Origin: Isoetes taiwanensis
Lineage: Eukaryota > Streptophyta > Lycopodiopsida > Isoetales > Isoetaceae
Assembly (NCBI GenBank): GCA_021234155.1
Contig: JAJEKV010000003.1
Span: 27,635,166-27,699,165, forward strand
Length of the DNA: 64,000 bases
Reading direction: 5' to 3'
Every line of letters starts with the position of its first letter. Position 1 is the stretch's first letter. The translations under genes and the position numbers were made by a program. Shown here one piece after another: positions 4,682 through 62,042 of the stretch. A model generated the notes under the pieces. The model did not search any database and had not been told where the DNA came from. It saw nothing but the letters and a program-made list of their open reading frames with translations.

Positions 4682-4857
4682 CTATCAATAGGAAGTGAGC
4701 GGAGTATCAGTATTCACGCCTGGCGTGTTATATTTATTTATTTATTTATAAACTTAGAAACTAAGAGACACGCCCGGCGTGTTTAGCGTAAAGTTGAAAG
4801 TAGGGATACAATTGTTTGCACGCTCAGTGTAAAACCGCCTATATAGGAAAAACTATA

Positions 4858-9900: not shown

Positions 9901-10288
9901 GGGTGGAATGGTGGTGTCCAGTACCAACGTATCGGATAAAGAAAGGTACTCAGATTGTTGGACAAAGAGATGGAGGAGAAATCCGAGTGATCCTGATCTT
10001 TGGCTAGACTATGAAAGTGTTTTGTACTCATGGACTCCAAACACTATTCCAGCTAGAAATGCGAGAATTACAATACCTCAGGATGTCAGGAAGAAGGCTA
10101 TGATATCATTGGGGGTGCTTGAAGAAAGTTGAATAACTATGTAAATTTTTGTTATCACGTTTTTATGATATGGTGCTGTATTGTGAAATATTGACTATTT
10201 TGTAAATAACATGATATTACGTTTTCATAATTTTGAGGTGAAATGTGTGAATTTGAATATGCTACTAAAAACATGCAATATGAAATTT

Positions 10289-10332
10289 GTCCCAAAATTA
10301 AGACATAAACCTAATTTAATTGAATGATGGTT
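10289..10332 (-). repeat. Terminal inverted repeat, inner end of copy 1
   Basis: Read on the minus strand it begins AACCATCATTCAATTAAATT and differs from the left end of copy 2 at only one of 44 positions. Confidence 0.9.
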
Positions 10333-18640: not shown

Positions 18641-20530
18641 ATGTTGAGGATTTGTAAATGATAAGATAGCAATGATACTAAGGTGCCGCTCATCACTCTG
18701 TACATTATCCTTTCATTCAGTCTCTACCTTGCTTTCCAATTTGCCCCTCTCTTAGAAGCCTCTGCATACATGTTCCTGAGCCTAGAACAGCTTGATGCAT
18801 TGACAAAGTTTCTTAATGTCTTCCATCCTCACTTACCCTTAACAGAGGCTGGGAAGCTTCTTAATGTCTTCCATGTTTGCTTACTCTTAATGGAAGCTGG
18901 TGAGCAACCTCGGGTGACTGGTTGCTAGGCTTTCGTAGAAAAGATATTCCATATAAAAGGCATATAAATGTTTGGTGGCTCTTAAAATACCATATACATT
19001 AATATTTTATTGGGCATTTGGAGTTGGTATATTATAAGAAGTACATCATCCTTAACTTAAGGCTAAATATTTCGGTTGGTGTTAAAAGTAGAGCAAACTT
19101 GAAAAGAAGCAACCCCAAAGATAATAAAAAAATGTGCTAGCAAAGCTAATGGTTGCATAAATTAATGGTTCATTCGTTGGTTATTGTTAGTGGGATAACT
19201 AAATGCTTCTAAAGCCAAATTCTCATACTGTTTTTGCGGCGAGAGATAATTATATCATGTATTGCAATAGTGCACAACCTGCTTTACATTGACTACCAAA
19301 ACCAAACGAAACCAAGACTACCACTTACAAAGTTCAATGCAAAAATGTTGACAAAACAATAGCAGATAATCAATGATTACTTTAACGCTATGCCTTTTAT
19401 ACAATGGTAAATTAAGATGTAGAATCTGCAAATATATAGTTTACCAAGACAACATGTGTTCTCTAAATCTACAACCAATTGAAGCTTGGTATGATACATT
19501 TTCTGAGATTCTCATAGTTTCAGAGCCGCAACATCTTCCTACATGTAGGAAAAACAAAACCAAGACTACCACTTACAAAGTTCAATGCAAAAACGTTGAC
19601 AAAACAATAGCAGATAATCAATGATTACTTTAACGCTATGCCTGGCAGTTTATACTATGGTATAATGTGCATGGAGTGCTAAATTAAGATGTAGAATCTG
19701 CAAATATATAGTTTACCAAGACAACATGTGTTCTCTAAATCTACAACCAATTGAAGCTTCGACCACTTGAAGAAATTATGATACATTTTCTGAGATTCTC
19801 ATAGTTTCAGAGCCGTCTCAGTGATATTTCCCAACCTAGCACAATTGGAACATTACTTTTCTGAGCGTGTCAAATAATTTGGCAAACAGAATTTTTCAAC
19901 ACAATGTACCATAAGTTTTGGCATAAAAATTTTGAAAAGGCTTGCCTAATCATAATGACTTTTCTGCAACAAAAGATGCTTCGCTAGACTCCATGTACAT
20001 TGTAAAGATTTGCATAACTGCAATCAAATTGGTCATGAAGCGCAAGTACATTAACACGCAATATATATCAATCTAACTTTGCAAGCTTCAATCTACTGGT
20101 GAAGTTTCTGGGTACAATGCAATGATACATCTCTATAGGATAAAAACCAATAAAGGAAAACAAAATACATACCATTTTCAATGCAAATATTGCTGAATAT
20201 GGTGCTCCTGTATACACATGGCATCCTCCTACTCACAGCAATATTTCCTGCCAGCAATGAAGCTTGAGTGTAAGATTCCCTAATTCCTACTTTTTATCTT
20301 CAGAAGCTTACAATCATTTGTAAATGCGGAAACTCATGCCCCTGCAGATTACAACGGGCGCAACTAAACAACTAATAACCTAACCCAGCTAGTCATATCA
20401 TTAAAACCAGATGAAAATATGTACAATATAAGAGTTTTCTTGCAAGTCCATCTCTGAATCATGCATCTATTGCCATTATATCAGATGTAACAGTTACAGA
20501 GTACATATAGACTTTTACTGGGTTTTGCAG
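18641..20530. other. Probable non-autonomous Helitron body, non-coding
   Basis: AT-rich, with no coding signal. The only structure seen is the tandem repeat at 19311-19814. Confidence 0.35.
19311..19814 (+). repeat. Two-copy tandem repeat, about 250-bp period
   Basis: ACCAAGACTACCACTTACAA starts at 19311 and again at 19559. The second copy has two small insertions (TATACTATGGTATAATG and GACCACTTGAAGAA). Both end at TTTCAGAGCCG. Confidence 0.9.
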
Positions 20531-27140: not shown

Positions 27141-27719
27141 ATGTCTAGCAGATTTGGTGCAGGGTTATTGAGCGAAGTAGAGGTCTACAAAGGTGGATCA
27201 GGCTTCCAAGTTTGAAAGGATGCCATAAAACATATTTTAGAGGTGGAAGACCTTTGGGATCTTGTTGATCCCTCTGGAGAATTTGATGGCCAGGATAGTT
27301 CTGCTACAAGTGCAAATGTAAGAGTTGGAACAAGAGGTAACTCTAATACTAATGTTGCAGCAATAAGTATAGGAGATGCAAGTTCAGGACAAACTACTGC
27401 CTGCTCAAGTTGAACCAGGAAGGAGTCCATTTGCAAGATCAAAGGAGGCACAAGGCATTATTACCTCAAAGGTCAGTCCTCCTATAAGACTGAAATTGAG
27501 AAACATGACTGCTAAAGAAATGTGAATTTACTTGCTAAAACATTATGAAGAAAAAATATCCTCTCAAATATACATTCTTGAAAAGGAATTGAGAAAGTTA
27601 AAATTAAAGGGTAAAGATGATGTCTCAGAGTTTTTTAACAAATTTGATAATATTGTAGCAGACTTAAGTGGGGCAGGTGTGAATAAGATTCAAGCAGTAA
27701 TCGAATAGCCATCGCCGAA
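27141..27719 (+). pseudogene. Ty1/copia gag remnant with Ty3/gypsy patch at its end
   Basis: Starts MSSRFGAGLLSEVEVYKG and reads KDAIKHILEVEDLWDLVDPS, typical of copia gag. Further on, in shifted frames, come YEEKISSQIYILEKELRK and DDVSEFFNKFDNIVADLSGA. The last 15 codons switch to a gypsy pol phrase, KIQAVIE-PSPKN, which continues after copy 2 as VHEVRSFLGLAGF. Several stops make it dead. Confidence 0.75.
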
Positions 27720-27723
27720 GAAT
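27720..27723 (+). repeat. Target-site duplication GAAT, left of copy 2
   Basis: GAAT here and at 40074-40077. Collapsing the duplication restores the frame PSPKNVHEVRSFLGLAGF. Confidence 0.95.
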
Positions 27724-27754
27724 AACCATCATTCAATTAAATTGGGTTTATGTC
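27724..27754 (+). repeat. Left TIR of copy 2
   Basis: AACCATCATTCAATTAAATT followed by GGGTTTATGTC; mirrored at 40043-40073 with two mismatches. Confidence 0.95.
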
Positions 27755-30700
27755 TTAATTTTGGGACAAATTTCATATTGCATGTTTTTAGTAGCATATT
27801 CAAATTCACACATTTCACCTCAAAATTATGAAAACGTAATATCATGTTATTTACAAAATAGTCAATATTTCACAATATAGCACCATATCATAAAAACGTG
27901 ATAACAAAAATTTACATAGTTATTCAACTTTCTTCAAGCACCCCCAATGATATCATAGCCTTCTTCCTGACATCCTGGGGTATTGTAATTCTCGCATTTC
28001 AAGCTGGAATAGTGTTTGGAGTCCATGAGTACAAAACACTTTCATAGTCTAGCCAAAGATCAGGATCACTCGGATTTCTCCTCCATCTCTTTGTCCAACA
28101 ATCGAAGTACCTTTCTTTTTATCCGACACGTTGGTCAACCGATGCCTTTGGACACCACCATTCCACCCGCACATGGTTGAAGTTAATATTACCTTCTTCT
28201 TTGCAAATATCAGAGATAGTGAACCCCAACCACACTGGATATGTATCTAAATCTGATGGCTTTACTACCACAAATTGGTGGCATTCCAAGTCAGTGGAAG
28301 GTTCATAAGCATCCATGCCTAGAAACTTTGGCCTATTGTTCTTAGGACCAACATAGTGTTTGTCAGAAGGAGGAGGAGCATATTGCTTGTGAATGCTACT
28401 TACAGTGTCATCAACATCCTCAGCACCTGCTAAGGTCTTCCACCTAGTTTTAGGCAACCACCCTTCTTTCAATTCATCTGAGGATGTGTCTATCTCCCCC
28501 AACAGGTTAATCACCTTCTTCCAGTAAGCCACCAAGGCACGGTTGGTGTCATCTGGATTGGTTTGCCAATGCTTTATATAGTCTTGGATTCCTTCCTTAG
28601 TCAATCCCAATTGCTTCACTTCTTCAGTAGGTTTTAAAGCTTTTGGTTGACCTAGAGGTATCATAGGTTTGCCATTCTCATCTCTATGCCATATTTCCTC
28701 CCCTCCTCTCCACTCATCCTCTGAAGGTCTCATCTTCCATTGGAAGATTGGAATCCCATCTCTCACCCAAAAAGTGAACTGCAGAGGCCTGGAATGACCT
28801 TCAAGATCCAATGTATAACCATCCACAAAGCTCTTCCAATCGGGCACTTCTTCTATGAGAGAAGCTATAGGGTTTGGAGTAGTGCATTCATGCAAGATTT
28901 CCATTAGCCTAGGAAAGTTGGTCCTTTGTTTTCTTTGCTTCAGTATACAACTATATTTGCCAAATAATGCATCTACATCCTCATGGGTATGCGGGGCATA
29001 AGAAACCCTAAATTAACTCTTTCAAATATCCCCACGCTGTTAAGTAGGATAGGAAAGAAAACATCCACCTGTTCTTATTTGGCCAAAGCACAATTATCAA
29101 GTTGCAAGAGAAACCTTTTGGGTACATCTTGAGGTTTATACGTGAAGTTGAAGCTCCAACATGTTCATTAGACCCATGCTTCCTAAACCTTGCCTTGCTG
29201 AACTTTTCAATATTGTTAGGGTTTCCATCTAACAATGCTCTATGTAGTGTCCGGCTAGTGTAAGGTCACGGAGGTGACCATTGTATCCATTTTCATAGTT
29301 TCTCAAACACCTCATGATACTCCCAATATGAAAATCTGGACCATCACTCCACAACTCCAAACTAAAATGGCCATAGTAGGTTTGATTCGCCCATGCAAGA
29401 TTGCCCCAGTCATTGAGATCTGTAAAGGGTATGATCTTCCACATGACTTTGGTATGTACTTGAATTGTGGAAGACAAGTCTTTTGCTGGTCCATCTTGTC
29501 ATGTATAATACATAAATAGTTATTGGGTTCCAATGCGGATAAAGTCCTCCACATCCAATAACATGATCTACATGATAGTTGGTCAGTCATATGGTCCTTC
29601 ATATGCTCCCTTATCCTAGCCCTTTGACTAGGTTGCACAGTCTTATCAAGAGTCTCCTTCAACTTAGCACATAAATTGCACTTTGCAAAGTTGTTTGAAG
29701 TTGCTATGGTGACATGATTGAAATGCTTCTTCCATAACCTACTAAAGCTAGGTTGGGATATTGGAAGAATTCCCAATTCTCGAAGTAGGGAATTCACTTC
29801 TTCAAAATACTCTTTTGAGTACAATGTGATGGCAACCTTTTCTCAACAACCTGCTCTTCCCTTTTCATCCCTTACGCTTTTTTGTGTGGCATAGACTCTG
29901 CATTGAAATCAATATATTTTTCAAATATCTCCCGGCAGCCAAGGTCCTAGTTGTTGGTCTCAACAAACCATTATTTCCATGTAAAGCAATCCTGTTCCCC
30001 CCACACTTTTTTTTTTGCCAATTATGCCATGAAGAAGTTGGAATTGCATGGATACTCTGCCATGCTTTTGCACATATCCATTTGCCTAGCAAAGGGTATC
30101 TTTTTGTTTGGGTTTCTTTCATCTTGAAGTGCATGCTCGAAGATTGTGTACATGTAGGTCCTCCTCTCATCAGCGATTGTACTCTTGAAAAGTGGCTCTT
30201 GCTTTCCACCAATTGTTCTATTGTGAAGAATTGCATACAATCACTCAACAACAATCGGAGCCCCTAACCTTCACCATTGTCTCACGTTTGGTGTCACTAA
30301 TCAACTTGGCTCTTTTGCTAGGATAATGTCGGCAAACCGATACTTCTCCCCTTTTGCCTAGGTTTAGAGTTCCAACTGCCAATGGATCAATATCAAGACA
30401 ATCATTGTCCCCAACAACCTCGGGGCTCTGGAAAAATATAATCCTCCACAAATTGAGCACTACTTATAGGCCATGCCATGATGCAAGGAACCTCCAATTG
30501 CTTGACACAACTAAAACATTCCTTGTCACCCAAACCTTTACCTTTCCAGTTGTCTTCCAACATCGAAATTGCAATACCAATATTGTCTTCCCCTAGCCTT
30601 TCATCATTAATGACTTGACCGGGATCTGCTAGCACAATGACTCCTTGGCCTACTATTTCCTTGTTGCACTTGTGCATGATTCTCACCTTCTTGTTCCTCC

Positions 30701-31144
30701 ATTGCACCCTACTATAGAGGACTAATTGTTTTTCTTCAACATTCTTGCTAGGAGTTGGTTTTTCATTGATATTGCTCTTTTCAATATGTTGCACACCATC
30801 TTGAGTTGGAGGCACCATTGACCTAGGCAAATTGCACCCTTTTTTAGTCAATGAGTAGGAAAAATTATTACACCATAAGATAAAAAACTACATTACATTT
30901 ATGGAATATGTAGAGGTAAATGAAATTTTTTAAAAGCAAGAAATTCCTTGGAAATAGGTTTAATATAATAATAACAATGGGCATTAAACGAAATCAACAA
31001 GGAAATGACATTTATATAAATATATCCAAATTTTAATTATCGAAAATTTGGATATATGATTACGAAAAGACATATAACTAATAGACGTGAGAATTTATTA
31101 TCCATAATAATATACCCTAGATGATATAGCTGGCGGGAATTTCG

Positions 31145-31260
31145 TACGCCTGGCGTGTTATTTGAGGCAATAAATTATTCACGCTAATTTCTAATTAACC
31201 CTATATAAATCCGGTTCACGCTCTCAAGACCTCCATTCTGTCCCAATTTTTTTTTTCGCC
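31145..31260 (+). promoter_or_regulatory. Promoter of the acidic gene, copy 2
   Basis: GGCGGGAA, palindrome TACGCCTGGCGTG (31145-31157), TTATTCACGCTAATTTC, TATATAAA (31202-31209), CACGCTCTCAA, then ATG at 31264. The same elements in the same order recur at 32344-32440. Confidence 0.65.
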
Positions 31261-31263
31261 GCC

Positions 31264-31742
31264 ATGAAGGCGTTGACCTCGGCTTTCGGCGTTCATGAAG
31301 AACCCGAGGTCTCCTCAAAGAGGCGTCGGGTTGAAGAACCGCTCAATTCCCCCCTCATTGATTTTCTTTCCCAATTCTCCTCTGATTCCGATTCAGAGGA
31401 TGATTCTGATTTCGACATGGAAGAGGAGGAGTTGAGCTCCTCTGATTCCTCTGATTCTGAAGAGGAGGAAGAGGAGGAAGAGGAGGAGATGTCCTCCCAA
31501 GAGCACATGACCGCTCTGCGCCCGGGGTTGGCTTGACCCTCAAAGCGAGAGAATGAAATCTCGAGGAGGAGGAGGAGGAGGGAGGAGGAGGAGGAGGAGG
31601 AGGTCGACAACCGACCCGGTTTTTGGAGTGGTTAAGAGATGAACCAGGTTTGCATGTGATTTCTTTTTGTTTTTGTTTTGCACCTTTCTTTCTTTTCTAA
31701 AACCTTTCTTTCTTCTTTGTTGCAGGCATGGAAGAAGAGTGA
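31264..31742 (+). pseudogene. Acidic transposon protein, copy 2 (frameshifted)
   Basis: Same two-exon layout as copy 1: exon 1 31264-31647, intron 31648-31725 (CCAG|GTTTGC...TTGTTGCAG) and exon 2 31726-31742 ending MEEE-stop. One poly-Glu run is shorter. A frameshift near 31520 gives an early stop after ALRPGLA, so the protein would lose its C-terminal EEE...FLEWLRDEPG part. The exon 2 reading EPGMEEE matches copy 1's EPGVEEE. Confidence 0.65.
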
Positions 31743-32343
31743 TCACGAGATCGGGCGGCCCATTTTTGTTTCCATTCTTCTGAAGTTTTGGACCGCCTCC
31801 AGCATTTTTTTTTTCAGTAAATTGTGTGAAAAGCCTTGAACAAGCTGCTTCCAAGCCTTCAGGGCATCTGTACATACAAGCTTTTTTAATGAAATCAAAC
31901 AGTTTTCTTCATAAACTTTGTCTTCAAGCAGTTTTTTCTTCAAACAGTTTTTACGTACATAAAATTTTTGGATAAAATCAAAAGCAGTATTCTCCAATTA
32001 TTTTGGCTCCAAGCTGTTTTTCTCTAAAATTGTGTCTCTCTAAAATTTTGTATACGCAAATTTTGTCTCAACAAAGTCTCGTGAACACTATAAATCAACC
32101 ACATGAGAAATCTCGATGCATCCACGGTAACCATAGGAAATTTTTCTATCGACCTAAAACAATTCCCCAACCTTACAAGTCATTTTTTAGCATTGATAAC
32201 TTTGCCTTTAAAATCATTTGTAAGTTAGCCTATATAAAATTTCTAAATTCTATTTTTTGAATGCAATAAATGGAATAAAATGTCTTGGAGAATTTATTGC
32301 ATGAAATGCAATATTCTCCATATATACCATATACATGTCATGT
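31743..32343 (+). other. 3' flank of acidic gene, non-coding
   Basis: Contains repeated AAACAGTTTT-type tracts (31890-32030) and AT-rich DNA up to the second promoter. No gene seen. Confidence 0.45.
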
Positions 32344-32531
32344 CTGGCGGGAAGACCGTACGCCAGGCGTGTTAATTCAAGCAATCAATTATTCACGCTA
32401 ACTTATTTCTAATTATGCCTATATAAATCCATTTTACGCTCTCAAAGTTCCTACATTTTCTTCCTTCCTTCATATGATTTTGCGGTTCTTGGCTGCTTCT
32501 TTGTGTTTGGATCCATGATCACGAAATCTTG
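32344..32531 (+). promoter_or_regulatory. Second duplicated promoter and non-coding first exon, copy 2
   Basis: Palindrome TACGCCAGGCGTG (32359-32371), TTATTCACGCTAACTT, TATATAAA (32420-32427) and ACGCTCTCAA, then a short leader to a TTG|GTGAGC donor at 32531/32532. The layout copies the promoter at 31145-31260, so one arose from the other by duplication. Confidence 0.6.
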
Positions 32532-33019
32532 GTGAGCGATTTATATTCAGCAATGTTAGATGTTTGGTTTCGGCAATTCTAACTTACTAAAAGACTCGCC
32601 TTTTAGTTTACAGTAGCATCTCATGTAGAGAGGACTAAGGTCTGCGAATCGAAAAAAGCCTCGGAATTAAAACCACAAGCATAGTCCTCCGTTCTTGAAT
32701 CCTTCCGACCTCACAACTCAAGGTTAGTTTTCATTTAGTTTTTAAGTTGCATCTCAATGGCGGGTTTAATCCAAGAAGACAAGCTTTTGCATTTGCTCGA
32801 GGCGAGAGGAAGCGGAGATGATGTTTATGAAAACCGAATAGTTTTTATAAACTTCATCCGCTTCTTTGTTTCAGTAAATTCTTGAGTTTCTCTTCTGAAT
32901 TAATCATGCTATTGCATGCAAGTTTCTATTATGAATAAGTGTAGTAGAAAGCATTAGAAAAATCTGAAAGATAATATTTGAAACATGCTAAAAGCGTGTT
33001 TTATGGTAACCTTAGCCTT

Positions 33020-33218
33020 CAACATGAATACGCTTCGTGCACTTTCAGTGAGAGAGGTAGAAAAAAAGCATGCGAGATAGATAAGTAAATATATAAAGGC
33101 CAGGCAATTATTTACACGCTAAGCGTGTAAATAATTGCCTCGCCTTTATCTATTTACTTATCTATCTATCTGCATGTTTTTTCCCTCTAGCGGGAATACA
33201 TAGCGGCGTGTATAGTTT
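33020..33218. repeat. About 190-bp hairpin with intact 33-bp apex, copy 2
   Basis: The apex CAATTATTTACACGCT / AGCGTGTAAATAATTG around base A33121 is a perfect palindrome containing CACGCTAAGCGTG (33115-33127). Arms GATAGATAAGTAAATA and TATTTACTTATCTATC, then GGTAGAAAA / TTTTTCC, extend it. It lies in the predicted intron 32532-33382 of the coiled-coil gene. Confidence 0.85.
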
Positions 33219-33382
33219 TTCCTATATAGCAGTTTACACGCTGAGCGTGCAAACAATTGTATCCCTACTTTCAACTTTACGCTAAACACGTCGGGCGTGT
33301 CTCTTAGTTTCTAAGTTTATAAATAAATAAATATAACACACCAGGCGTGAATACTGATACTCCGCTCACTTCCTATTGATAG

Positions 33383-33915
33383 ATGCCAAGTTACATTAAT
33401 CACCCGGTTGGTGACGAAGATGCATTAGAATTACATTTGGGCCAGTAATCACACAGCCCAGCTCCAGTTTCGGCTCCAGTTTCCACTCCGGTTGAACCCA
33501 GCCGAGCACTAGTCCGGTTGGAGCACCAGTCTTGCAACCCCTGGAGTACTTGGATCAAGTAATGATGATGGCAGCAGAGCGCAGGGCAATGATAGATCTG
33601 GGCTCTGGGGCCCTTGCAATCGCACGGAGGCTGGCCCTCTTATCTAATCACTTCGAGAATGCAGTACATGCATTGATCGAGAGTGAATCTCGCATCCGTC
33701 AGCTCGAGATTCAAAATGAGGAGCTGCGTTTCTTAGTGCGGATGCCCCAACACGAACCACTACCACAGGCGGTATACGATGCAATGGAGATGGCTCAACC
33801 AATCGAACCACTACCGCAGGCGCTATACGATGCATTGGAGGTTCAACCAATGGAGCGGCGGAGGCGGGAGCAGGAGCGGGGAGGTGGAGGTGGAGCAAAG
33901 GGGTGGTGGAGCTAG
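33383..33915 (+). pseudogene. Coiled-coil/proline-rich transposon gene, copy 2 (frameshifted)
   Basis: ATG 33383 sits right after ATTGATAG, the predicted acceptor of an 851-nt intron. MPSYINHPVGDEDALELHLG is followed by a stop in this copy. The frame from 33532 then reads PLEYLDQVMMMAAERRAM, ALLSNHFENAVHALIESES and RQLEIQNEELRFLVRMPQ, giving a coiled-coil-like helix of about 45 residues. Two repeats (EPLPQAVYDAMEMAQPIE and EPLPQALYDALEVQPME) follow, then an Arg/Gly-rich tail. Function unknown; it may form oligomers. Confidence 0.5.
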
Positions 33916-34371
33916 AGCACGGTGTTTTTTTCTTTGGGGTTTTACGAGGAAGAATTCACTATGCCTGCAATGGAAATGGGAGTATCGATAGCCCGGCTAC
34001 TCAGTAGACTGGGCTTGAAACAATAGATGCAGGATTTTGTCCGGTTTATCCGGTTTATCAGATTATATACAATTGTAATCTTTTTCCAATGAATACAACA
34101 AATTTTGTCTACTTCTATATTTCTACAATGTAATACATGTTACATACCTTTTTTAAGCGGTTTCTTGGCCATGCAACAAATGTTCCAACACTTTCTCCAA
34201 CCGTATCCCCACCGGGGTGTCTGCGAGGTAAAGCTTCATCCATAGCGCATGATTAATCAACGTAACTTCGGACATACTTATCCCCGGCGGAATTCCATGG
34301 CGGTTTCTGATCGGATCGATGGAGTCGATCTTGCATAATCCTACTTTCCTTTTTCGATTTGTAGTTAACAT

Positions 34372-34840
34372 GAAACATTCATCTTGACACTCGAGGAAAA
34401 TTGCTATTGAGACACCTACTATTGGAAATTAATGTTCAAGCTATTGGAATGAGATGAGTACGTTAATTTTGTAGCCATTCTTGAGAAGCTGATTTGAGTC
34501 TCTGAAGGCTGATTTGAGAAGTTGAAGGCGCTATGGAAACTCTGGCGGTCGGGGAAAATTGAATTAGAAGAAAGATTAGGTTAACTACGTTTAAGGCGGG
34601 ATAAATTTGGCGGGATACTTTTTGGGTAGATTGGTTTTAAAACTTAATGAAAGAAGTCGTACGGACGGGTCTTTCGTCATTATTATTTGTATATGTCAAG
34701 AATATTTCAAAGCGCATTTTGTGTTTTCTTGAAATTCAAATTTCTCTATTTCTCGTCTGGTAGAAAAAGCTATTCCTTCGAAAGCTTCGGCTTCGGCCAG
34801 ATCCGGCGACCTTCCGACTCTGTTACTAGGCGACTGGGAG
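34372..34840. promoter_or_regulatory. Divergent intergenic region between genes A and B, copy 2
   Basis: 469 bp between the two divergent starts. It corresponds to 3208-3672 of copy 1. Confidence 0.45.
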
Positions 34841-37800
34841 ATGTCTTCTAAAGTTTAATCGAGGTCGAGGAGGGATCGGGTGAAGGAAGCGGTGGAAGAG
34901 GAATCTCTAAACCCGGCTCTTCTCAAGCTTCAGAGGACGTTGATCAGAATACACAGAATACACAGAACCCTATTCAAGGTATTTAATTTGCCACAGAATA
35001 CACACTGTGTGGAGAGTATTATGCTTGCATGAATTTGAGATATTTCCTTTCACTTAATATGCTTTGCATGAGTTTGAGTTATTATGCTTTGCATGAATTT
35101 TAAGTATTAACATCAGTTAATGCTCTGATTGTCCGTTCTGTAGAACATAATTTTGCTCTGTTTTATATATAGAATATAGCGGTGTTAGACAGTTGGAGAT
35201 AGCAATGTTCAATGAGGTTAAATAGTGTGAAATATGGATTCATGAAGGGTATGTAGCTTAAATGTGGATGCAAAATAATTTAGTTTCAAATTAACGCATA
35301 ACATGGTCAATAATAGGAGATACCAACACGCCAAGCGTGATTTGTACTAATTTAGGTTTAAATGCACGCCAAGCGTGATCTCTTGTTACGAAAAGTCTTT
35401 GTAAAAAGTGCTCATCTTCATTTGCGATTGCTCAAGAGGAAGAAAACCCCTAATAATTGGGGTTCTAATCACGCCAAGAAAGCAAGGGCAGACGACCCAG
35501 ATGCGGTACCATATGATCTCACCTTAGATGATGAAGGGCCGATTCTTATAGCAACCACTGACCCTGCCTGGCCTGAAGAGGAAATGGACGAGGGTGCCGA
35601 GTGGTACGTTGACCTTGCCAAGACAAATGGCAAGCTCGACTTAACTCTCTTCTCGAGGAAAAAGGAAGCAGACAAGATGGCCAAACAAGGGATCCTAATC
35701 TCTTGTGAGGAAGAGGATGACACCAAGCGCAAATTGCTCTTGGAGATTACGAAGCGAGAAGAAAGATCCGCCGGACTTACTCCTTTGTAGAGCTCGCATA
35801 CAAGGATACGTTCATGAAGACGGATGTGAGCGGTGAGACATGTTTTTAAGTATGGTTGGCCAACCAATGTAGCGATTACGCCAATATCTATTTGCCAAGG
35901 GGTTACAGCTGTGCGTAGAGGCATGTTCACTAAACCGACACCAAGTCACTATTTGCAGCAAGCTAGGGAATTAGCTGACTTGAAAGCTTCTAAGAGGGTC
36001 CTAGATCTAGGGAAGGATGTTCAACCTGCAGTTGTCGAAGGCATGGAGGCTTCTATTTTTGAGAATGAACAGACAATTAGTGGCGCAGCCTAGAGGCCAT
36101 GAACAGTTTGAATAAATACTCTGACCATTATCCATTGGGTCTTAAGGAAACTTTTGCGATCCATGTGAAGTCCCTCATCCGTTCACCAAGCTCCATTTAT
36201 GTTAGCAGAAGATATGATCCAGCACATGCCATGGAGATTGTTCAGAGCATGATTAGTAATCCAGGTCAAATGCCTATGCCGGATGTGCTACCTTGGGATA
36301 TGATCTCGAACAAACTTCTTTGTGTGTGGGATCTAACGCCCAGAGCTATTATCAAGTGATGATATTAAATATGTCATCATCGGCCGGGCAAAGATTCCGT
36401 TGAGGCACAAAAGGCGATCATCAGTGCCCGAGAACAAACAGGCCAAAAAGTGTTCTACAATCACTATGCGTATAGGAGGTGTCATATCTTGGATGCCAAT
36501 ACTTCACCTGCAGATTTGGCTGAGATTAGTGCAACTTTGAATGAAATGGGGAAGACATTTCTATACAAAAGGTAATCAACCTGGTTTCATAAATTGTATT
36601 CACGCCAGGCGTGCTTTCAAATCAAACCAGTTCACGCCGTGCGTGTTTTCAAATCAATCGAATTCCGCCCGCGTGTTTTCAAGTCAACCAATTGATTTGA
36701 AAAACGCCGGGCGGAATTGATTGATTTGAAAACACGCGGGCGTGAACCGGTTTGATTTGAAAGCACGCGCGTGAATTGCATTAGTAACTTTATTCATTTC
36801 ACGCCAGGCGTGATTTTTCTCTTGATCAATTCTATTCAAATCGCGGCGTGTTTCTATTCTATGATACTAATTCAATGTGCGTACTATTGCAGTCCATCGT
36901 TGAACAACCGCATGCGCCAGTCAACGATGGGTGGAATATGGCTGCCCATTGCCCACCGGGCATGGTCAAAGTCCGAGGCATTCAAGTTTCTTTGGAGCGG
37001 ACTCGCATGCATGAACAATTATCTGAGAGAAGAAGAAGGCGCAAGAAAATCAAAAGAAAAAGGTGGTGATGACATTGCAGATCCTTCTGAAAGCTCATCC
37101 AGCAGGTCAGGACCAACAGACTCGTATAAGATTGTGTTTTGTAAGGAGGCAGTATGGCTCAAGTGGAATGATCTCGGGACGCTTATGCACAAGGGAAGCT
37201 GCCAGATACTATGGGTAGGGTGCCTCCTGTTGATGTAAGCATCTTTGACTTGAATGTGACAGAGATGAGAAAGACTCGGGGGCTAGGCGACGAGAGACCA
37301 TTTGGGTTTTAGACCGTGCTTAAAGAAGGAAGTCTTATACAAGAAGGGTGCTTTCACCAAGGATAGGATGTCCTTCGTTGAGTGCTGCAGCCATGTAAAG
37401 GATGTACGTACAATGAAGTCAGCTGTAGGAGCTGAGTTACAAAGGCTATCGGGGGATGTGGCATTATCTGAAATTGGATTCTTTGGACAAATACAAGGTC
37501 ATGTAATGATGACATCAAGAAGTTTGTATTACGGTCAAAGGACTTCCTAAAGAATTGGAAGGCTAAAAATACAAAACATAAGGAGACTCTACCCCTAAGG
37601 TCTTGAGTTGAGTTGAGAAGAAAAGTGGCCCTTGTGAAGAAGATTCTTTGGAGAAGATGACACATCCCATATTGAGTCTCCATTGGGTACAAAGGTCTCT
37701 TGCCAGATTCAACTTCTGGCCTTAAAAATATATCACTCTTTGTGTTGGACAGCAGGGGTGGGAGAGGAGATATGGGCATGAACGGAAGGACTGATAGCTT

Positions 37801-38890
37801 CTTTACCGGTGTATAGGATTGACAACTGAGAGGTCCTTCACTATTGTCATCGTTTGTCCTTCAGGTGAGTCACATCTGCATGCACTATCTGCTGCTCATG
37901 ATCTGGAGTGCCTCAAAGTTATTAGGGAGGGATGCCTAATATATGATGTTAAGGATAATGAGTCTGAACGTAAGCGGAAGATGGCACATGTGATCTTTAT
38001 TATGATATCCATCTTTGTCCGGACGAGGAATATGATATTGCTAAGGCCAAGGGTGACAATAGCGGTGCATGGGAATGTTTTTCTTCTAGATGATCGGACT
38101 TAAGAACTATATTCTTTCATACGGATCGGGATCGGTAAGCGGGATGAGTCGAGAAGAGGATGAGGATCGGGACCCCCTCCTAAGTGGGGAAATCAAGTAC
38201 GAGCTACAAACTAAGGAGAAGGGTCCCTTAAATAAAAATGGATTTCCCCGTCTATGGTCGCTTACCTCGTCGAGGCATTTGCTCCAATTGATACAACTGC
38301 TTGGAGCTTCATGTTGGAGGTTATATTGCCCGAGAGGCTCTTATGGGTGCAAGAAGATGTCTTTGCTTTGTGAGTGATGAGCAGGCCAAAGACTTTCTTG
38401 AACCATTCCTCATGCATGTGCTTGCCAAGTCTCCTAAAGGCCCTTATGGCAACCTGAAATCATCAGCAATCAAAAGTCTCGTAGACTTGTCCAATTCGAA
38501 AGTGGGCGTTGCTTACGGAGTGGGAACTAGTAATCTGCGACCGATAAGGAAAGCGGTAATGAACAAATAGTTGCTAAACTGGTTGCTCAAAGAAACCGAT
38601 GATGGGCGAACTTAGGGAATATTTTTGCCCACATTGCGGGTGATGCAAGCAACAATAGAGTAGATTCACAAGTTAACAATGAACTAATTGACGGAAAAAC
38701 GAAAATGAAGGCAAGCGAAAGGCGGCTCTAGTGATTCACAGGTTTGCCAAATCAATAGTAAAATAATGTCGGTTGTGAAGGGCCGCGGAACTAATAGAAA
38801 ATAACAATTCTAACAAATCGAGAAGAAGGCGAAGATTAAGGGTGGCGAAGGGGAGAATGGCGCCGATGATGGCGTAAACGAAGATGATAG
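34841..38890 (+). pseudogene. Gene B of the transposon, copy 2, main part
   Basis: Exon 1 from ATG 34841 is RG-rich but has a stop after MSSKV caused by a local change (copy 1 is open here). Intron 34979 to about 35428 contains palindromes at 35327-35339 and 35365-35377. Exon 2 (to 36571) reads KRKKTPNN, KKARADDPDAVPYDLTLDDE, EWYVDLAKTNGKLDLTLFS, SHYLQQARELADLKASKRVL and MISNPGQMPMPDVLPWDMIS. Intron 36572-36892 has GTAATC, a TACTAA branch-like site and TATTGCAG. Later exons show KIVFCKEAVWLKWNDLGTL, VGAELQRLSGDVALSEIG, SHLHALSAAHDLECLKVI, ELHVGGYIAREALMGARR and SDEQAKDFLEPFLMHVLAKS, then a Lys/Glu/Gly-rich linker ending near 38890 (GATAG|GTATGG). Many indels. No known family recognised for this part. 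Confidence 0.55.
36572..36892 (+). repeat. Palindrome-rich intron of gene B, copy 2
   Basis: Perfect CACGCCAGGCGTG at 36601-36613 and 36800-36812, with decayed copies between. TTTCAAATCAA spacers on the left pair with TTGATTTGAAA on the right around a centre near 36698, so about 210 bp can fold into one hairpin. Confidence 0.8.
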
Positions 38891-39126
38891 GTATGGCCTT
38901 GCCCACGAAATAGCGCCACGCAGCGTGATTTAATTTGTATTACCTTTGAATTAAATCGCGCCAAGCGTGCTTTGATTATTTTTCGTTGTCAAACTAAATC
39001 ACGTCGGAAAGCGATTTGGTTATGACTATTTCAAATCACGCTTGGCGGCGTTTGTATTGTTTGTGTTATCGTACCTTCTTTGACCCGGATACATGTTTGA
39101 TGTTTCACTTCCATTGCGTTTCTAAG
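38891..39126 (+). other. Predicted intron before the FCP1-like exon
   Basis: GTATGG donor-like start and TTTCTAAG acceptor-like end. Holds CGCGCCAAGCGTG (38957-38969) and a decayed CACGCTTGGCG near 39037. Phases on both sides do not match exactly in this damaged copy. Confidence 0.4.
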
Positions 39127-39677
39127 AAGGTTGTGGTGTTCGACCTAAGCGGAGTCCTTTGCAAGACTTTTCGAAAAATAAAGTGGCTAGAGAACGGTTT
39201 CATCGGACACACGGTAGAATCAAACACCAAGTGGATCTATCCGGCGGACTTGAAGGAGATGCTAGGCGAGGCATTCAGGTTATTTCGAGTTGGTATTTGG
39301 TCATTCATGGAACTAAGGAACATCAAGGATACTTTGGAGCCACCGGGGAAATGCGTAGACATTGGTTGACCCTTTGGGATCGGAACAAATGTGTGAAGTT
39401 CACTAATCCCAAGGATCCAACAGGCAAGCCTATCTTCATCAAACACTTGAGTAACATGATGGACGAACTTGGTATCGAGAATAAGGATGATATAATCATA
39501 GTGGATGATGATGCTCTCAAATGCTTCTACAATCAAACACAGGCCCTGAATCCACCATCTTACGATCCAAAAAACTTTGCGACAGATGATTTTCTGGTGA
39601 AGTTTGTGTCTATTATGCATAATTTGGCTATGGGGATGACGGTGGGTGGTGTTAGATTCGTACCCAGAACTGGATAG
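39127..39677 (+). pseudogene. FCP1/HAD-like phosphatase domain of the transposon
   Basis: Reads KKVVVFDLSGVLCKTF (HAD motif I; the second Asp of DxDxT is Ser here, as in several plant DLNGVL-type members), then YPADLKEMLGEAFRLFRVGI and WSFMELRNIKDTL. After a one-base shift near 39350 it reads HWLTLWDRNKCVKFTN, GKPIFIKHLSNM (motif III Lys) and KDDIIIVDDDALKCF (motif IV). The end is RFVPRTG-stop at 39677. The order fits FCP1-type CTD phosphatases. It is probably the C-terminal domain of gene B, joined through the preceding intron, but could be a separate gene. Copy 1's counterpart lies outside the window. Catalytic activity is doubtful given the motif I change. Confidence 0.65.
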
Positions 39678-40042
39678 AACGGCGGACATGGAACCACACC
39701 TTGTTAAATACGTGGAAAAACATGGATTGATTCCTTAATGTTTTATTGGAATATATGATATTTTTGTATGATATTTGTGCCATGTATCGATAATTTCGAG
39801 TCTGGAATTGCCTCGCAAATAATGCAATTTGTTATTATCAAACCTAATATTATCATCTATCGAGCAAGCAATTTTTGTCTCATCTATGTTATCAACTTGC
39901 TCTTATTCTGCATATTTCAATTCGCATATGAAAAGTCACACGTGAATCGCAACCTTATGTTATTTTTGAAGTCCAAAAAAAAAGATTAAAAAAAACAAAA
40001 ACCCCCTAGAAGACAATAGCAGGTTGGCGTGATTTTGGAGTT
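39678..40042 (+). other. 3' flank and subterminal region of copy 2
   Basis: AT-rich, non-coding. Ends with half of the palindrome (TTGGCGTGA, 40024-40032) just inside the right TIR. Confidence 0.5.
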
Positions 40043-40073
40043 GACATAATCCCAATTTAATTGGATGATGGTT
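40043..40073 (-). repeat. Right TIR of copy 2
   Basis: Read on the minus strand: AACCATCATCCAATTAAATT then GGGATTATGTC. Followed by the GAAT duplication at 40074-40077. Confidence 0.95.
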
Positions 40074-40077
40074 GAAT

Positions 40078-40557
40078 GTGCATGAGGTGAGAAGCTTCTT
40101 GGGCTTAGCAGGATTTGTTCAAAACAATGACATGGTATGGAAATTAAACAAGGCAGTTTATGGCTTAAAACAAGCACCAAAGGGATTGGTCGCACTATGC
40201 AAGATACAACAAACCCAGCTGTCGGTACGGGATGCTGCTAGGGGACGAGCGGGTACGAGTGCACCACCTGGGGTTGGTCGCACTATGCAAGATACAACAA
40301 ATCCAGCTGTTGGTGAGTCTTCTGAAGGGACCTTGAATGGAATTTCTGAGGAAGAGATCAAGGCTCTTGAGAAGATGAAGATGCCAGAATTCGATGGAAC
40401 TGGTACGCTAGAGGATGCTATGCTATGGTTCGGTCACATGAAGTTATATTATGCGGCTACTAAGAAAAGCGATACAGCAAAGGTGTTGCATGCTTCTCTT
40501 AAGCTAAAATGTGTTGTTGCGCGATGGGTTCTTGCAGGTGTGCGATGGGTTCTTGCA
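40078..40557 (+). pseudogene. Chimeric retroelement remnant right of copy 2
   Basis: One frame strings together a gypsy phrase (VHEVRSFLGLAGF), a copia RT phrase (DMVWKLNKAVYGLKQAPKG, about 40130-40185) and a gypsy-like gag piece (KMPEFDGTGTLEDAMLWFGH, about 40377). A 42-bp stretch with CGCACTATGCAAGATACAAC is duplicated (40176 and 40275), and a 22-bp unit CGATGGGTTCTTGCAGGTGT is doubled at 40521-40564. Gene order is scrambled, so it is a patchwork, not one protein. Confidence 0.7.
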
Positions 40558-41515: not shown

Positions 41516-43100
41516 TGCTTCATGGTGGGCTATCCACACTGACAACATATGTTAAGAAGACTTCAAAATCAACAATGCCAAGAAAGCCACTGCCAAACTG
41601 GAAAGCATGATGGCCGGAAGGTCTAGATAGAAGAACCTGGAAGAGCAAGAAATGATTTTTCTTTGTCTGATCACCTAAAGCCACAGAAGAAATTGTGCCG
41701 AGAGGGAAAAACGATTATGGATTTGCATGTTTTTTCTTTTTTTTCTTTGCCGGACTGCAGAAGGTATCTAACAATAAATTTAATTCTTTCTTATTTTGAT
41801 TATGTGGGTTTGCACATATGTCGATGATTCTGACGGCTATGAATTTTTTGCATTCCTTGAAGGTCTTCAGTGCGGCCTTCTGACTTGGATCAGAAGCGGA
41901 AAGCTAGAAATATCATGCTTTCTTCGGAGTAGAGTTCTCTTCCCGTTGGATATGGAGATAAAAATCGAAGAACTAAGGTATGTAAACTACACCGAATGTC
42001 TTTGCAAGTCTCATTCCATTATTTTCTTAAGCCTACACTTTATACAAAACAATGAGAGAGATGACCAAAGCAAAAAAAGAATGAATTTTGGATGGCTAGA
42101 GTATTCAAATTACGGCCTTGTGTAGATATACCTATACTTTCTAAACTCAATAGTAATCATCTATGGGAATCTTCTCTTGTACCATATGAAACACCTCCAT
42201 AGCCTCTGCAATGTTTAATTTGAGATCATTTGGAGGCTCAATCAGATGTAAGACTTCATCCATTCCATTGTTTTCTTAAGCCTGCACTTTAGATAGAACA
42301 ATGAGAGAGATGAGCAAAGAAAAAATAGAATGAATTTTGGATGGCTAGAGTATTCAAATTATGGCCTTGTGTATATATGCCTATACTTTCTAAATTCAAC
42401 AATAATCATATACGTGAATCTTCTGTACTATATGAAACACCTCCATGGCCTCTGCAACCTTTGATTTGAGATCGCTTGGAGACTCAATAGGATGTAAGAC
42501 TTCATTCCAACCCAAGTACACTGACTTCACCAGCATGGATCCACCAAGGGATATGATTGCTCACGACATCTGACATAACTAAGGTATCGGAGCCGATTGT
42601 AAAACTCTACTGGCTTAACAAGCCACCCCGAAAGATGTGGCTGCATTGTATTTGGAAGAGTAGATGCAAGAGACGGATAGATCAGAGTGCAAATTGATTC
42701 TGATATATAATAGTCAGCATTATTTGTGTAGAAAATCTTATTATTTGTGATGGCTGACTATAAGACTCTTCTGGCAACCATCTGCTCACAGATCCAACCA
42801 TTTGCCCATTTAACCCACCTGACTATCTGCCCATTTCATCCACCTGATTCGTATCCATCAATAGCAATACAAATGAGATATTAACAACAAAATTTTCTAA
42901 ATACTTTGATTTGATTGAAGTGCAACTCATGCTAACATGCATATGCAGCAAGTCTTTGCTAAAATTCATAGAGAGGAATCGTATTAACAAACTTTATATC
43001 ATTACATTGTGTACCACATTTTTTTTGGCTTATGCCTTAGTTAATATACATGTGTCTTAGAAGCACCAGAGGTTTGGTAGTCTAATTTTCTATATTTCGA
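41516..43100. other. Unassigned DNA right of the LINE
   Basis: After GTTGTTGCTTCATGG, which continues the pre-LINE sequence, there is an open stretch at 41796-42000 (GKLEISCFLRSRVLFPLDME) followed by AG|GTATGT, which looks like an exon but is not recognised. Then comes the tandem repeat at 42012-42507 and AT-rich DNA. Confidence 0.3.
42012..42507 (+). repeat. Two-copy tandem repeat, 249-bp period
   Basis: CATTCCATT-TTTTCTTAAGC starts at 42012 and 42261. Both units include AATGAATTTTGGATGGCTAG and GAAACACCTCCAT-GCCTCTG, with scattered substitutions. Confidence 0.9.
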
Positions 43101-47310: not shown

Positions 47311-47615
47311 TGATGCCATAGCCGTACTCTGAAGAAGGAGGCGCATATCCAGAAGAGTTCGACGCCATAGCCTTTTCATTTGCCGACAAGACAAGAAGCC
47401 CCAAAAACTTTCACGAGCACCCCCAAGAACTTTCACGAGCACCGAAACCAAAATGGAAACTTAATGGGTTATGTATAATGGAAACGTCCCTAACAGCAGT
47501 TAGGGGCAAATTGTCTCTCAAAGGGAGAGCCAAATTTTTTACTCTCCCTTCATCTCTTGCCATCTCCCATCTCTCCCCATCTCTCAAATTGTCTCTCAAC
47601 CCCCATGTGGCCAAC

Positions 47616-47799
<184 letters not shown>

Positions 47800-47897
47800 G
47801 TAAAGGTGGTTGGGGGCAGGGCCCAATCAAGCAATGTAGTGTGGTGTGTAGTCACACGTCCAGTTGGATGTTGCCTAGTGGCATGACGTTAAAACTA

Positions 47898-48062
<165 letters not shown>

Positions 48063-54369: not shown

Positions 54370-57157
54370 ACTTGATCTTTTGGAAAGATACAAGAATGTG
54401 TTTCCTGAGGAGTTGCCTATAGGGCCACCTCCGACAAGGGAAGTGGAGCATGAGATTGACTCTTGAGCTTGGAACTAAACCAATAGCAAGAGTACCTTAT
54501 TGCTTGAGTCCTCTTGAGATAGAGGAAGTCAAAAAGCAAGTTAAGGAATTGCTTGAAAAGGGATTTATCCAGCCAAGTAAGTCTCCTTTTATGGCTCAGT
54601 GCTGCTAGTTAAAAAGAAACATGAAACGATGCACATGTGCATAGATTATCGTGCTCTTAACAAAGCAATAATTAAGGATAAATATCCTTTACCATGTGCA
54701 TAGATTATCGTGCTCTTAACAAAGCAATAATTAAGGATAAATATCCTTTACCACAGATTGATGATATCTTAGATTGTTTGGGTGGTGCAACTTGGTTCAT
54801 CAAAATTGATCTAAGGAGTGGATATCATCAAATTAAAATCCGTGAGGGTGACAAACTGAAGATTGTCTTTCGAACTCATCAAGGCCACTATGAGTTCTTA
54901 GTCATGCCATTTGGTCTCACCAATGCATCGGCTACATTCATGAGATTGATGAACTGAGTATTCGCTGATTACTTAGACAAATCAGTTGAAGTATCCTTGG
55001 ATGATATGCTTGTATACTCGAACTCATTGGAAGAATACTTTCAACATCTAGAGCAAGTGCTTAAAGTGTTGCGAGCCAATACGTTATATACCAAAATTTC
55101 TAAGTGTGATTTCCTTAAGCAAAGGGTTTCTTATTTGGGTCACATTCTGTCGGGGGAGGGAGTGTCTCCGGGCCGTAGCAAACTACGTGCAGTACAAGAA
55201 TGGATTCAATCTGAGAATGTTCATGAGTTGAGAAGTTTTCTTGGGTTGGCTACCTACTACCAAAACTTTGCGCCTAAGTTTTCAAAGGTAGTAGCCCCGC
55301 TCACCAACCTCTTGAGAAAAGATCAAGAGTATGTGTGGGGTCAAGCTCAACAAGAGATCTTTGAAAGGATTGTAAGTCTTTTGATGAGCAGTCCAGTACT
55401 AAAGGTACCTGACCTCAATGAGTCGTTTGAGGTATATATGGATGCTTGTGGACAAGCTCTGGGAGGTGCGCTTATTGGATATGAAAATCGTAAGCTTGAT
55501 CAAGTGGAATGGAATTATGCAACATATGAGCAAGAACTATTGGCATAGTTCATGCATTGAAGACGTGGTGGCACTGCCTGAGATGTATTACCAGTGTGGT
55601 ATATACTGACCACAAGCCTTTGAGATTCTTGCAAAGCCAAGTTGAGATTAGCCCTAGGCAAGCTAGGTGGCTTGACTTTTTGCACGAGTTCCATTTTAGT
55701 ATTCAGCATACTCCTAGAAAGAATAATCTAGTTGCAGATGCCTTATCTAGGATCAAGCATTTAAATACTTTGATGGTAGGGGAGAATGATCTCTTTCTTT
55801 CAAAGGATTAAAGAGGCGTATCAAGAAGATAAGCAATAACCTGCAGTAACCAAGTCAGGGGATTGGTGGACTGAACAAGATGAGGTGTACTTTTATAAAG
55901 CAAGGATTTATGTACCATTAATTGCGTGACCATCATGAAACCCCACAAGCTGGGCATGGGGGTGAGTGGAAGACCTACGAGTTGGTCAAGTGCCACTACT
56001 AGCAGACATGAAAGAACAAGTTAGGGACTTGGTTTTGCATTGTTTGACGTGTCAAGCTGTTAAAGCTGACCATGGACGTACCCTGTGACTATTGCAACCT
56101 TTACATATACCATTGCAAAGATGGGAGTGTATAAGTATGGACTTTATAGTCGCTTTGCCTAGGTCCACAAGGCAAAACACTCAGGTGTGGGTAATTCTTG
56201 ATTGTCTAACTAAGTACGCCAAATTTGTGATCTCACAGGGAGATGCTACTGGTCCTGATGTAGCAACCGTATACATGAGATATGCTTTCTCTATTTTTGG
56301 TTTTCCTTTATCTATCATAAGTGATAGGGATACCAAGTTTACAGGTCACTTTTGGAAGGACCTTATGAAAGGTCTCAAGGTACGACTGAAAATGAATAGT
56401 GGTAACCATTCACAAATGGATGGCCAAACTGAGTGAATCAACATGATCTTGGAGGATATGTTGAGAAGTTTTGTTCGTGAATGCCAAACTCGTTGGGAGG
56501 AGTATTTTGCCTTACCTAGAGTTTGCATATAACAACAACCATCATTCGGGAATTAAGATGACTCCCTTTGTTGCTATGATGAGGCAGAATCCTAGAACTT
56601 ATACCGATATGCATAAGTATCTAGAGATGGATGCCGCAATGAATATGTTGGATGTCATGAATGCAATTTTGCTTCAATGTCAACAAAAACTTGTGTAGAG
56701 TTCAAGATTGTGCTGAAGTTTATGCTAATAAGCCTAGACGTGATGTTACCAATGAGGAGAGTGACTATGTGTTTTTAAGGATTGTGTATCCTTCATCATT
56801 ACGAATCAACACCCTTAAACAGTTGGTTAAAGGGTGAGTGCCTAAGTTAACCCCGAGATATGCTGGAACTTTTAAGATTGTTAAAAGGTTGGGTACCACA
56901 GCATATGAGTTGGCGTTACCACAGGATATTGGGATCCATCCTGTATTTCATGTAAGCCAGCTTAAGCGAGCTATACTAGATACAGATAATGTTGTTAGTC
57001 CTGAGAGTATACCGCTAGTGCTGAACTCCGCTGTAACATCCAAATGGAATCTAGATACTCATGTTCGGCAGTTGCGCAATACAGATAGCGAGGACAGTCT
57101 CCTGCAGATGCCACTTGGGAGACGGATGAGTTTGTGCAACGTTTTCCTCATTTGAAA
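54370..57157 (+). pseudogene. Ty3/gypsy pol remnant
   Basis: In order: pre-RT (VFPEELPIGPPPTREVEHEI, about 54400), RT ([47 protein letters not shown]), an altered active site EVSLDDMLVYS at about 54990 where the usual Tyr of YLDD is Ser, and RNase H (VYMDACGQALGGAL, then TDHKPLRFLQSQ at 55607). Integrase follows (WECISMDFIVALPRSTR, DCLTKYAKFV, SIISDRDTKFTGHFW, NSGNHSQMDGQTE), and then a C-terminal domain (PRYAGTFKIVKRLGTTAYEL, HPVFHVSQLKR) ending FVQRFPHLKL near 57156. Several stops and frameshifts make it inactive. gag and the 5' LTR are absent. Confidence 0.9.
54634..54751 (+). repeat. 59-bp tandem duplication inside the RT
   Basis: CATGTGCATAGATTATCGTG at 54634 repeats at 54693. It duplicates the RT motif around [15 protein letters not shown], a local error in this copy. 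Confidence 0.95.
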
Positions 57158-57950: not shown

Positions 57951-60173
57951 CAATCCTACCTTTTTAGGTCTTGACATATATTAGAAATAGTGGTCCTATT
58001 TTCTAGACTTAGGGGTTTTGCCTGAAGTATAAGAAATGGATAAATTTAGTAAAGGAAAAAAATTAGGGCCAAAGTTCACTGTCAAACAATTCTTAAATGG
58101 TTACAGTTTAAACACCATTTGGAAAAGGTGAATACCATGTAAAAGGGTTATTGCAACTGATGCTCCATGCTGCAAAAAAGTCAGTGTTAAACAAGGCTTC
58201 TGGGCTCCTGAATAGGATGCTAACCTCCTCGCTTGCATTGCTCATTTGGAAAACCTTGCCTAAGAAAGCAGGTATTTAACAATAAAAAAAAGGAAAAAGA
58301 AAATCAGATTGCTTTTGTGTTCAAATGTAACAGGGGAACGCATAGGTTATACTCGGGGAAGTGGTTATTCTAGCCAAAAGCAATGGTCGGATTAACCATC
58401 GCTTTTATCCCAAATAAATCTAGAAATGTCCAAATTAGCCACTGCTTTTGGCCGTATTAACCACGCAATGAACTGCGTATGAGACTTTGTATCGACAGAC
58501 TGATCTTGGATAAGATCTTGGAAGCAGCTTCCTAAATGCTCTAATCAAGTTGAAAGATAATTTGGATCTTCTTCCCAGTCTCTAAGAAACCCATTCAATC
58601 ATCAAAGGAAGAGTTTAGAGCATAAACCAAGCCAGATTAGTGAAAAACAATAGAGATCATTGGCTTCTAGGCTTGAAACTTAACAGATCTATAATCTGAT
58701 TTACCATTGTGCCAGTGTAGGATCAATTAGATTAGAATTAGAAGTGTTTCCACAACACAGACCACGACAACTCCACACATCCAGCAGCTTGCATGGCATC
58801 AGCCAGGGCCATCCAATAATGCACAACCAAGCCTCCCCATGCTGCCACCACTTCAGCATAGGCTACAACCATTCCCCACCTACCACACACAACACCTACC
58901 ATGACAGCCAATATTGACCAGTAGAGAGCATTAGGAGCAAAGACGTAGGAGCCGCAATATAGTGGTGGATTGCTTGGCAAAAGAGGCAGGGGAGAACCCC
59001 TTTAGCTACTCCAGATGCTAATTTTTGCCCCGATGACGTTCCATACGCCTGTACATATCGTTAGGGCAAGCCGCCATGGAGCGTATACTCCATAAACGAG
59101 GATCACCGTCTAAGGTGCAAATTGAAACATAACAGCTCTCATTGCCCAGAGCCACCCTGCATGTGAATATGCACCCAAACAATTATCAAATTAGCTAATT
59201 TACCAAAAAATATCATGTACTTTTGGGATTCCTAAGATTTTAGTTTCATAAAAATAGCTAGAAGGATACGTCAAGGCACACAAGTTGTGCCACTGCTTCT
59301 TAAGTAAATCTAATTACATGGCAATAGAATATAAACTTCTAGATTATCTAATACCCTTGAATTATCTTCTGATAATAATAACGGGAAACATGGAAGTACA
59401 TCGACATCTAGCTAAAAATAAAGTGCATGCAATCTTTAATTGGCTTAATAATACTCCATAGAACAATGGATATAATCTTATAGTCATTGGGCAAGTGAAG
59501 TACAACAATCCTATAGGCAACATCCAAAGTTAAGTACCTACACATTTGCATTGGGGGGACTTTTGGCTTCTTTACCTCAAATGTATGAAACTTTTGCCTT
59601 TGTGCAATACAATTAACTTTTATGAGTGCTATCAGCTGAGATGTCTATCTTTGCTTTTCTGAATGGGACCATTATGGGGTTGATTGGGACAAAAATAAGA
59701 GCTTTCGATGGGTTGTTCTTTTCTAAGCATCTTAGTTATATGAGTGCAAAATGTGAACTTCCTTTTCTTCTACCATCTTTCATTATCAACCCTTAAAGCT
59801 GTCATATAACCCATCAACTAAATCTAAAAAGGAAGTGAACTTTATTAATGTTTATGTGCATTCTAAACTTTATTTTCGTTAGTATGTTTTGCTAAAACCA
59901 ACAGGCAGAACATATAAATGGATATGGGAGAGGGTAATAGAACTTAAACAAAGCACGTAACATTGCCAGGTGTCAGCAATTTTTGCCCCCTTTTATATTG
60001 CCTTTATCTTGCCTCCCATCAGTCAGTTTTTACACTTAAATCGCATATTGAATTGGAACTAATCTTTAGAATAGGATTTAGAAGAATACATAAGGTGCAT
60101 ATTGTGAAGTTTCCTTTGCTCAATGCAGAGTGACGTGTTAAAACTTCTTGACAAACGTGCAAGGAGCGGTTAA
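57951..60173. other. Unassigned AT-rich DNA
   Basis: No domain recognised apart from the minus-strand membrane-like open stretch near 58738-59140. Confidence 0.4.
58738..59140 (-). pseudogene. Membrane-protein-like fragment, unidentified
   Basis: An open minus-strand frame (58980-58738) reads NPPLYCGSYVFAPNALYWSI and LAVMVGVVCGRWGMVVAYAE, strongly hydrophobic with Trp and Tyr. The same frame upstream to about 59140 continues (VILVYGVYAPWRLALTICTG) with two stops and begins after a CATGCAG acceptor-like site. It could be a decayed exon of a multi-pass membrane protein; family not recognised. Confidence 0.3.
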
Positions 60174-62038: not shown

Positions 62039-62042
62039 TTAA

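Follow-up and report, generated by a model that had tools for sequence, protein, structure and literature searches.

In the excerpted accounts on which we draw throughout, Sola transposons have DDD transposases, 4-bp target-site duplications and terminal inverted repeats (TIRs) of 11–1124 bp, with very variable ends (PMC10741241). Most are 2–9 kb in size with some exceeding 15 kb, and they are present in plants including Physcomitrella (PMC10741241), whose Sola1 is listed among plant TIR elements (PMC9033089); SOLA elements are far more numerous in Azolla than in Salvinia (PMC6786969). The subject of this analysis is a large TIR transposon of Isoetes taiwanensis, located at positions 27724–40073 of a 64,000-nt stretch of DNA (the window; all coordinates are window positions unless stated to be genome-wide). 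It represents a family that probably comprises young cut-and-paste DNA transposons of 12.2–12.5 kb, and most likely belongs to Sola, an already named, little-studied group; we put the probability that it is a Sola lineage at about 0.65. Lycophyte DNA transposons are little described in the literature found, and a limited survey of papers for this transposon family met none that mentions Isoetes. For one large and apparently recent family, the precise ends, the duplications and the gene content can now be given.

The element is 12,350 bp in length and is bounded by 31-bp TIRs at 27724–27754 (plus strand, beginning AACCATCATTCAATTAAATTGGG) and 40043–40073 (minus strand). The two repeats agree at 29 of 31 positions, and the ends are AACC..GGTT rather than TG..CA. 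Target-site duplications of sequence GAAT lie immediately outside at 27720–27723 and 40074–40077. When the flanks are joined with a single GAAT they read through in one frame as PSPKNVHEVRSFLGLAGF, with a stop codon immediately upstream. The original prediction, made from the letters of the window, had proposed the 12,350-bp unit with its TIRs and GAAT duplication, and had noted that collapsing the duplication rejoins a gypsy pol phrase; when coordinates and TIRs were checked, all of this was borne out. The flanking sequences (27575–27723 and 40078–40227) contain what we take to be a gypsy-like phrase (VHEVRSFLGLAGF) and then a presumably copia-like phrase (WKLNKAVYGLKQAPKG), consecutive in one frame. 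As read from these phrases, the element inserted into a composite of remnants from different retroelements. Within the element there are imperfect palindromes at 36598–36776 (186 aligned bp, 87%) and 33053–33188 (137 aligned bp, 86%), which are perhaps small nested elements.

The family extends across the genome. A search of the I. taiwanensis assembly (1,658,258,908 bases in 1,110 contigs) with the left TIR, allowing up to three mismatches, gave 1,857 forward and 1,861 reverse matches, a total of 3,718, while the reversed control gave none in either orientation. As the right TIR is only two positions off the search pattern, both ends are counted and the elements are fewer than the matches. 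Twenty copies with the left part were fetched from the 40 matches listed to an exact 96-bp query, a choice that biases the sample to similar copies, and all 20 start at the identical base. Right ends were fetched for 12 of these; the other eight were omitted, as their alignment to the element was broken, short or truncated at the edge of a contig. Every one of the 12 stops at the same borders as the window element and is flanked by a perfect 4-bp duplication (11 scored by script; L020, with a right TIR one base short, was returned as False by the script and scored by eye). Together with the two from the window these make 14 duplications (GAAT, TTAA, GTGT, CCAT, CCTA, TAAA, AAAG, CTTA, ATGC, ATAT, AATA, AATT, ATAT and ATTA), comprising 13 different sequences; of the 56 bases in all 14, 45 are A or T. 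Shared borders together with 4-bp duplications of differing sequence are far beyond chance, and it is near certain that this is a real family of TIR DNA transposons with many relatives in the genome; the borders predicted from the window alone are those of the genome copies. Nine copies (eight of the 12 plus the window element) were compared end to end, and are 12,202–12,504 bp in length with pairwise identities of 90.1–93.6%. The left 3.3 kb, on the side of gene A (see below), is the best-conserved part of the element.

Two further members lie within the window, both correctly located by the original prediction. A second copy occupies 1–10332 on the minus strand and is cut by the left edge of the window; its other end lies outside, so that its duplication forms no part of the counts above. 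It is identical to the large element at 9,578 of 10,150 ungapped positions (94.4%), and the N-terminal part of its gene A is an uninterrupted open reading frame (ORF) of 402 amino acids (7239–8444, plus strand). A short derivative of 1,865 bp is located at 60174–62038 (plus strand), with the expected TTAA duplication found on both sides (60170–60173 and 62039–62042). Of its left 43 bp, 36 agree with the large element, as do 29 of its right 31 bp. No further match between its interior and the large element was better than E 0.006, and a piece of that interior has 12 matching places in the genome.

Gene A is located at 27924–30818 on the minus strand, with its ATG at 30818–30816 and no evident intron. 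It encodes a protein of about 969 amino acids, a reading stitched by eye over several frame changes in which the letters at the joins are uncertain. The unaltered sequence contains a 297-amino-acid ORF (28119–29012, minus strand) that matches DUF7869 (PF25273) with 47.5 bits and E = 2e-12. The stitched reading raises this to 124.9 bits (E = 3.9e-36), with DUF7869 the sole Pfam family matched, and one genome copy, for which a single change of frame sufficed, gives 138.6 bits (E = 2.4e-40) plus two other matches at chance level. All three readings exceed the curated cut-off of 26 bits. DUF7869, an unnamed domain, is now tied to a mobile element. The protein contains three acidic motifs, IHDKMDQ starting at residue 438, LLQLDN at 571 and HTHEDVD at 612, the last falling within the 297-amino-acid ORF. 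These provide candidate D-D-D residues at D440, D575 and either D616 or D618. In copy L014 the second motif reads LDNCAGQNKNR, resembling a pattern DNCxGQNKN that we believe to occur in uncharacterized transposon proteins. The product of gene A is likely to be a DDD transposase performing cut-and-paste transposition.

Several points weigh against that assignment. The D-D-D residues are candidates chosen by motif rather than by alignment to an enzyme. DUF7869 is labelled a transposase in none of the results, and a limited search of the literature found no mention of it. An AlphaFold prediction from a single sequence, an unaltered ORF of 188 amino acids that covers the first and second motifs, had a mean pLDDT of 35.7 and was unusable as evidence for an RNase H fold. 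The original prediction had put gene A forward for comparison with known transposase families. In Pfam, searched to E = 10 with HMMER filters that drop most matches above about 0.1, no named transposase or integrase domain was matched; the match obtained was to DUF7869. A sequence search of solved structures gave no match for P0001, and what it gave for the core of gene A and for the reading of the NIF-like protein described below was at chance level. NCBIfam and PHROGs gave no matches, no relatives were confirmed in viral contigs or prokaryote genomes, and none were found in phage records by tblastn.

The probable placement in Sola is made from the length of the duplications and the size of the element, together with the candidate motifs and the hosts. 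Duplications of 4 bp flank all 12 genome copies and both complete window elements, the 31-bp TIR falls within 11–1124 bp and the length of 12.2–12.5 kb within the stated size range, candidate D-D-D motifs are present in gene A, and Sola too is reported from non-flowering plants. Against the placement, the element exceeds the 2–9 kb of most members of Sola, it carries multiple genes of which one is NIF/FCP1-like, and it is assigned by the published description of Sola rather than by transposase sequence. A different reading is that DUF7869 elements with AACC ends stand apart as a separate superfamily or as a lineage without a name, moving by DDD/E-type cut-and-paste and sharing with Sola only the 4-bp duplication. 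The match of gene A to just a 'domain of unknown function', the silence on DUF7869 in the limited literature search and the lack of a solved structure related by sequence would all fit this. Yet the testable features fall inside the published description of Sola (PMC10741241), and a missing Pfam name is weak evidence given that no Sola-named Pfam model appeared in any result either; we consider a separate superfamily unlikely. The original suggestion of an undescribed superfamily, which had left Sola out of consideration, is not supported.

Other superfamilies with short duplications agree less well. Kolobok elements have 5′-RR..YY-3′ ends, and the duplications of both Kolobok and piggyBac are TTAA-specific (PMC9587614). 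Our element shares the 4-bp length, and its AA..TT ends fit the Kolobok pattern, but TTAA is found in only one of the 14 duplications and there is no such transposase domain. Ginger elements have 4–6-bp duplications, long TIRs and plant members, all of which resemble the present case, together with TG..CA ends and an integrase-like transposase (PMC10741241). Here the ends are AACC..GGTT, and DUF7869 is matched with no integrase-like transposase. It is conceivable that the family belongs to Kolobok, Academ, Ginger, a CACTA relative or another named short-duplication superfamily with a transposase too diverged for Pfam, and the Kolobok-like ends (PMC9587614) and the single TTAA point in that direction; with 13 of 14 duplications other than TTAA, no matching transposase or integrase domain and ends that are not TG..CA, we regard this as very improbable. 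Duplications are 7–12 bp for Mutator and about 8 bp for hAT, and 3 bp for CACTA and Harbinger, in contrast to the 4 bp found here, and none of their transposase domains was matched in Pfam. The original contention that the element is unlike CACTA, piggyBac, hAT, Mutator and Harbinger thus holds in its AACC ends, its 4-bp duplications and the absence of such domains. Dada elements differ again, having 6–7-bp duplications and no TIRs and inserting in small-RNA genes (PMC3706591), while the present element has both 31-bp TIRs and 4-bp duplications.

The main oddity of the element is its extra genes, one of which is phosphatase-like. The plus strand has an ATG near 31264 that starts an acidic N-terminus. 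Beyond it, as far as 38570, are open stretches without a match to any Pfam family, and the whole forms one or more genes of uncertain limits and exons. When the three plus-strand frames were compared with Pfam, with stops written as X, there was a weak match to NIF and the others were at chance level. The NIF match corresponds to a gene for a NIF/FCP1-like HAD domain (PF03031) at 39110–39677, plus strand, with an approximate start. Read across frames it scores 49.5 bits (E = 4.9e-13), above the cut-off of 21.8 bits, while the raw ORF (39126–39677) falls below it at 19.8 bits (E = 6.8e-4). The region is present in all nine copies compared. Its motif I reads DLNG in three and DLSG in two, and is gapped or garbled in the remaining four (L010 among the garbled). 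Wherever motif I is readable the second aspartate of the DxD is missing; the protein may bind rather than hydrolyse. The original prediction had counted at least four genes; two have domain support, and the other plus-strand open stretches match no family.

These proteins bear on whether gene A is responsible for movement. Gene A could be a passenger, with transposition due to a plus-strand protein of no known family or to a transposase supplied in trans by another element. The plus-strand proteins match nothing apart from the NIF-like domain and every frame seen in the copies is interrupted, as such a reading would allow. Gene A is nevertheless large, is present in all copies compared and has plausibly spaced acidic motifs, and it lies in the best-conserved 3.3 kb; we hold a passenger role to be very unlikely. 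The extra genes could also be combined with a superfamily separate from Sola, one defined by AACC ends and DUF7869 that captured an FCP1-like pseudo-phosphatase and further genes as helpers or anti-silencing factors and kept them in its full-length copies through a recent burst. We find this quite doubtful, and retain Sola membership as the probable reading.

For a Sola lineage the following scheme may be proposed. The DUF7869 protein of gene A would bind the AACC TIRs and excise the element, which would then be joined at cuts staggered by 4 bp to generate the 4-bp duplications. The same protein would also mobilize short derivatives with similar ends; because the left end of the derivative in the window differs from that of the large element at 7 of 31 positions, we infer its mobilization rather than observe it. 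The plus-strand genes, including the NIF/FCP1-like gene, would travel as cargo or helpers.

The apparent age of the family requires comment. For the published I. taiwanensis assembly (1.66 Gb, 204 scaffolds and 909 contigs), nanopore reads from v9.4.1 flowcells were assembled with minimap2/miniasm, and racon and pilon were used for polishing (PMC8566536); modification-linked nanopore errors have been described (PMC10687267). The analysis of errors used the window element with copies L009–L028 and L041–L048. Eighteen copies were compared over their left 3.3 kb, where conserved stretches were taken as at least 10 bases with at least 17 of the 18 copies in agreement. These contain 3 CG against 87 expected and no CHG against 70, while the control motifs GC (85 against 87) and GHC (71 against 70) are at expectation. 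CA (217 against 163) and TG (174 against 134) are in excess. Substitution divergence in this region is 3.94% when all columns are counted, drops to 1.48% once CG/CHG sites are excluded, and is 0.76% at a distance of at least 5 bp from them. In the right half of nine copies the pattern is weaker, with 59 CG against 150 expected and 15 CHG against 112, and GC and GHC near expectation; over the whole element these nine copies diverge by 1.5% away from CG/CHG.

Near CG/CHG, indels affect 6.1% of cells and transversions 4.0%, compared with 2.4% for C-to-T or G-to-A and 2.3% for T-to-C or A-to-G. Indels and transversions exceed C-to-T changes, and T-to-C changes are equally common, a pattern that deamination would not yield. 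The best explanation is that methylated cytosines were miscalled, in repeats beyond the reach of polishing with short reads. In that case artefacts probably account for many of the frameshifts in the copies, and the apparent divergence of 6–10% probably makes the family look older and more broken than it is. A reading of the copies as old and dead, given their 6–10% divergence and frames that are all broken, was considered and rejected, as the differences sit at CG/CHG and are more often indels and transversions than C-to-T. Some observations pull the other way. The excess of CA and TG taken alone would also fit old deamination of methylated CG, the selection of agreeing stretches could inflate the depletion of CG/CHG (though the controls are unmoved), and such miscalls do not account for the indels distant from CG/CHG (1.3% of cells, perhaps arising at homopolymers). 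Assembly errors linked to CG/CHG can give a young transposon an old and broken appearance, and in comparable nanopore assemblies both dating and gene prediction would be misled.

The remainder of the window contains a number of local repeats. At 19304–19759 a tandem duplication is nearly exact (98% over 92 bp and 99% over 83 bp, with spacings of 248 and 272), and at 42012–42505 there is another, spaced by about 247 bp and 86–90% identical. Two long microsatellites, first CT and then CTAT, occupy 47611–48026. Lastly, an exact 59-bp tandem duplication at 54634–54751 lies in a phrase that, read by eye, is like gypsy reverse transcriptase, where 59 bp would break the frame.

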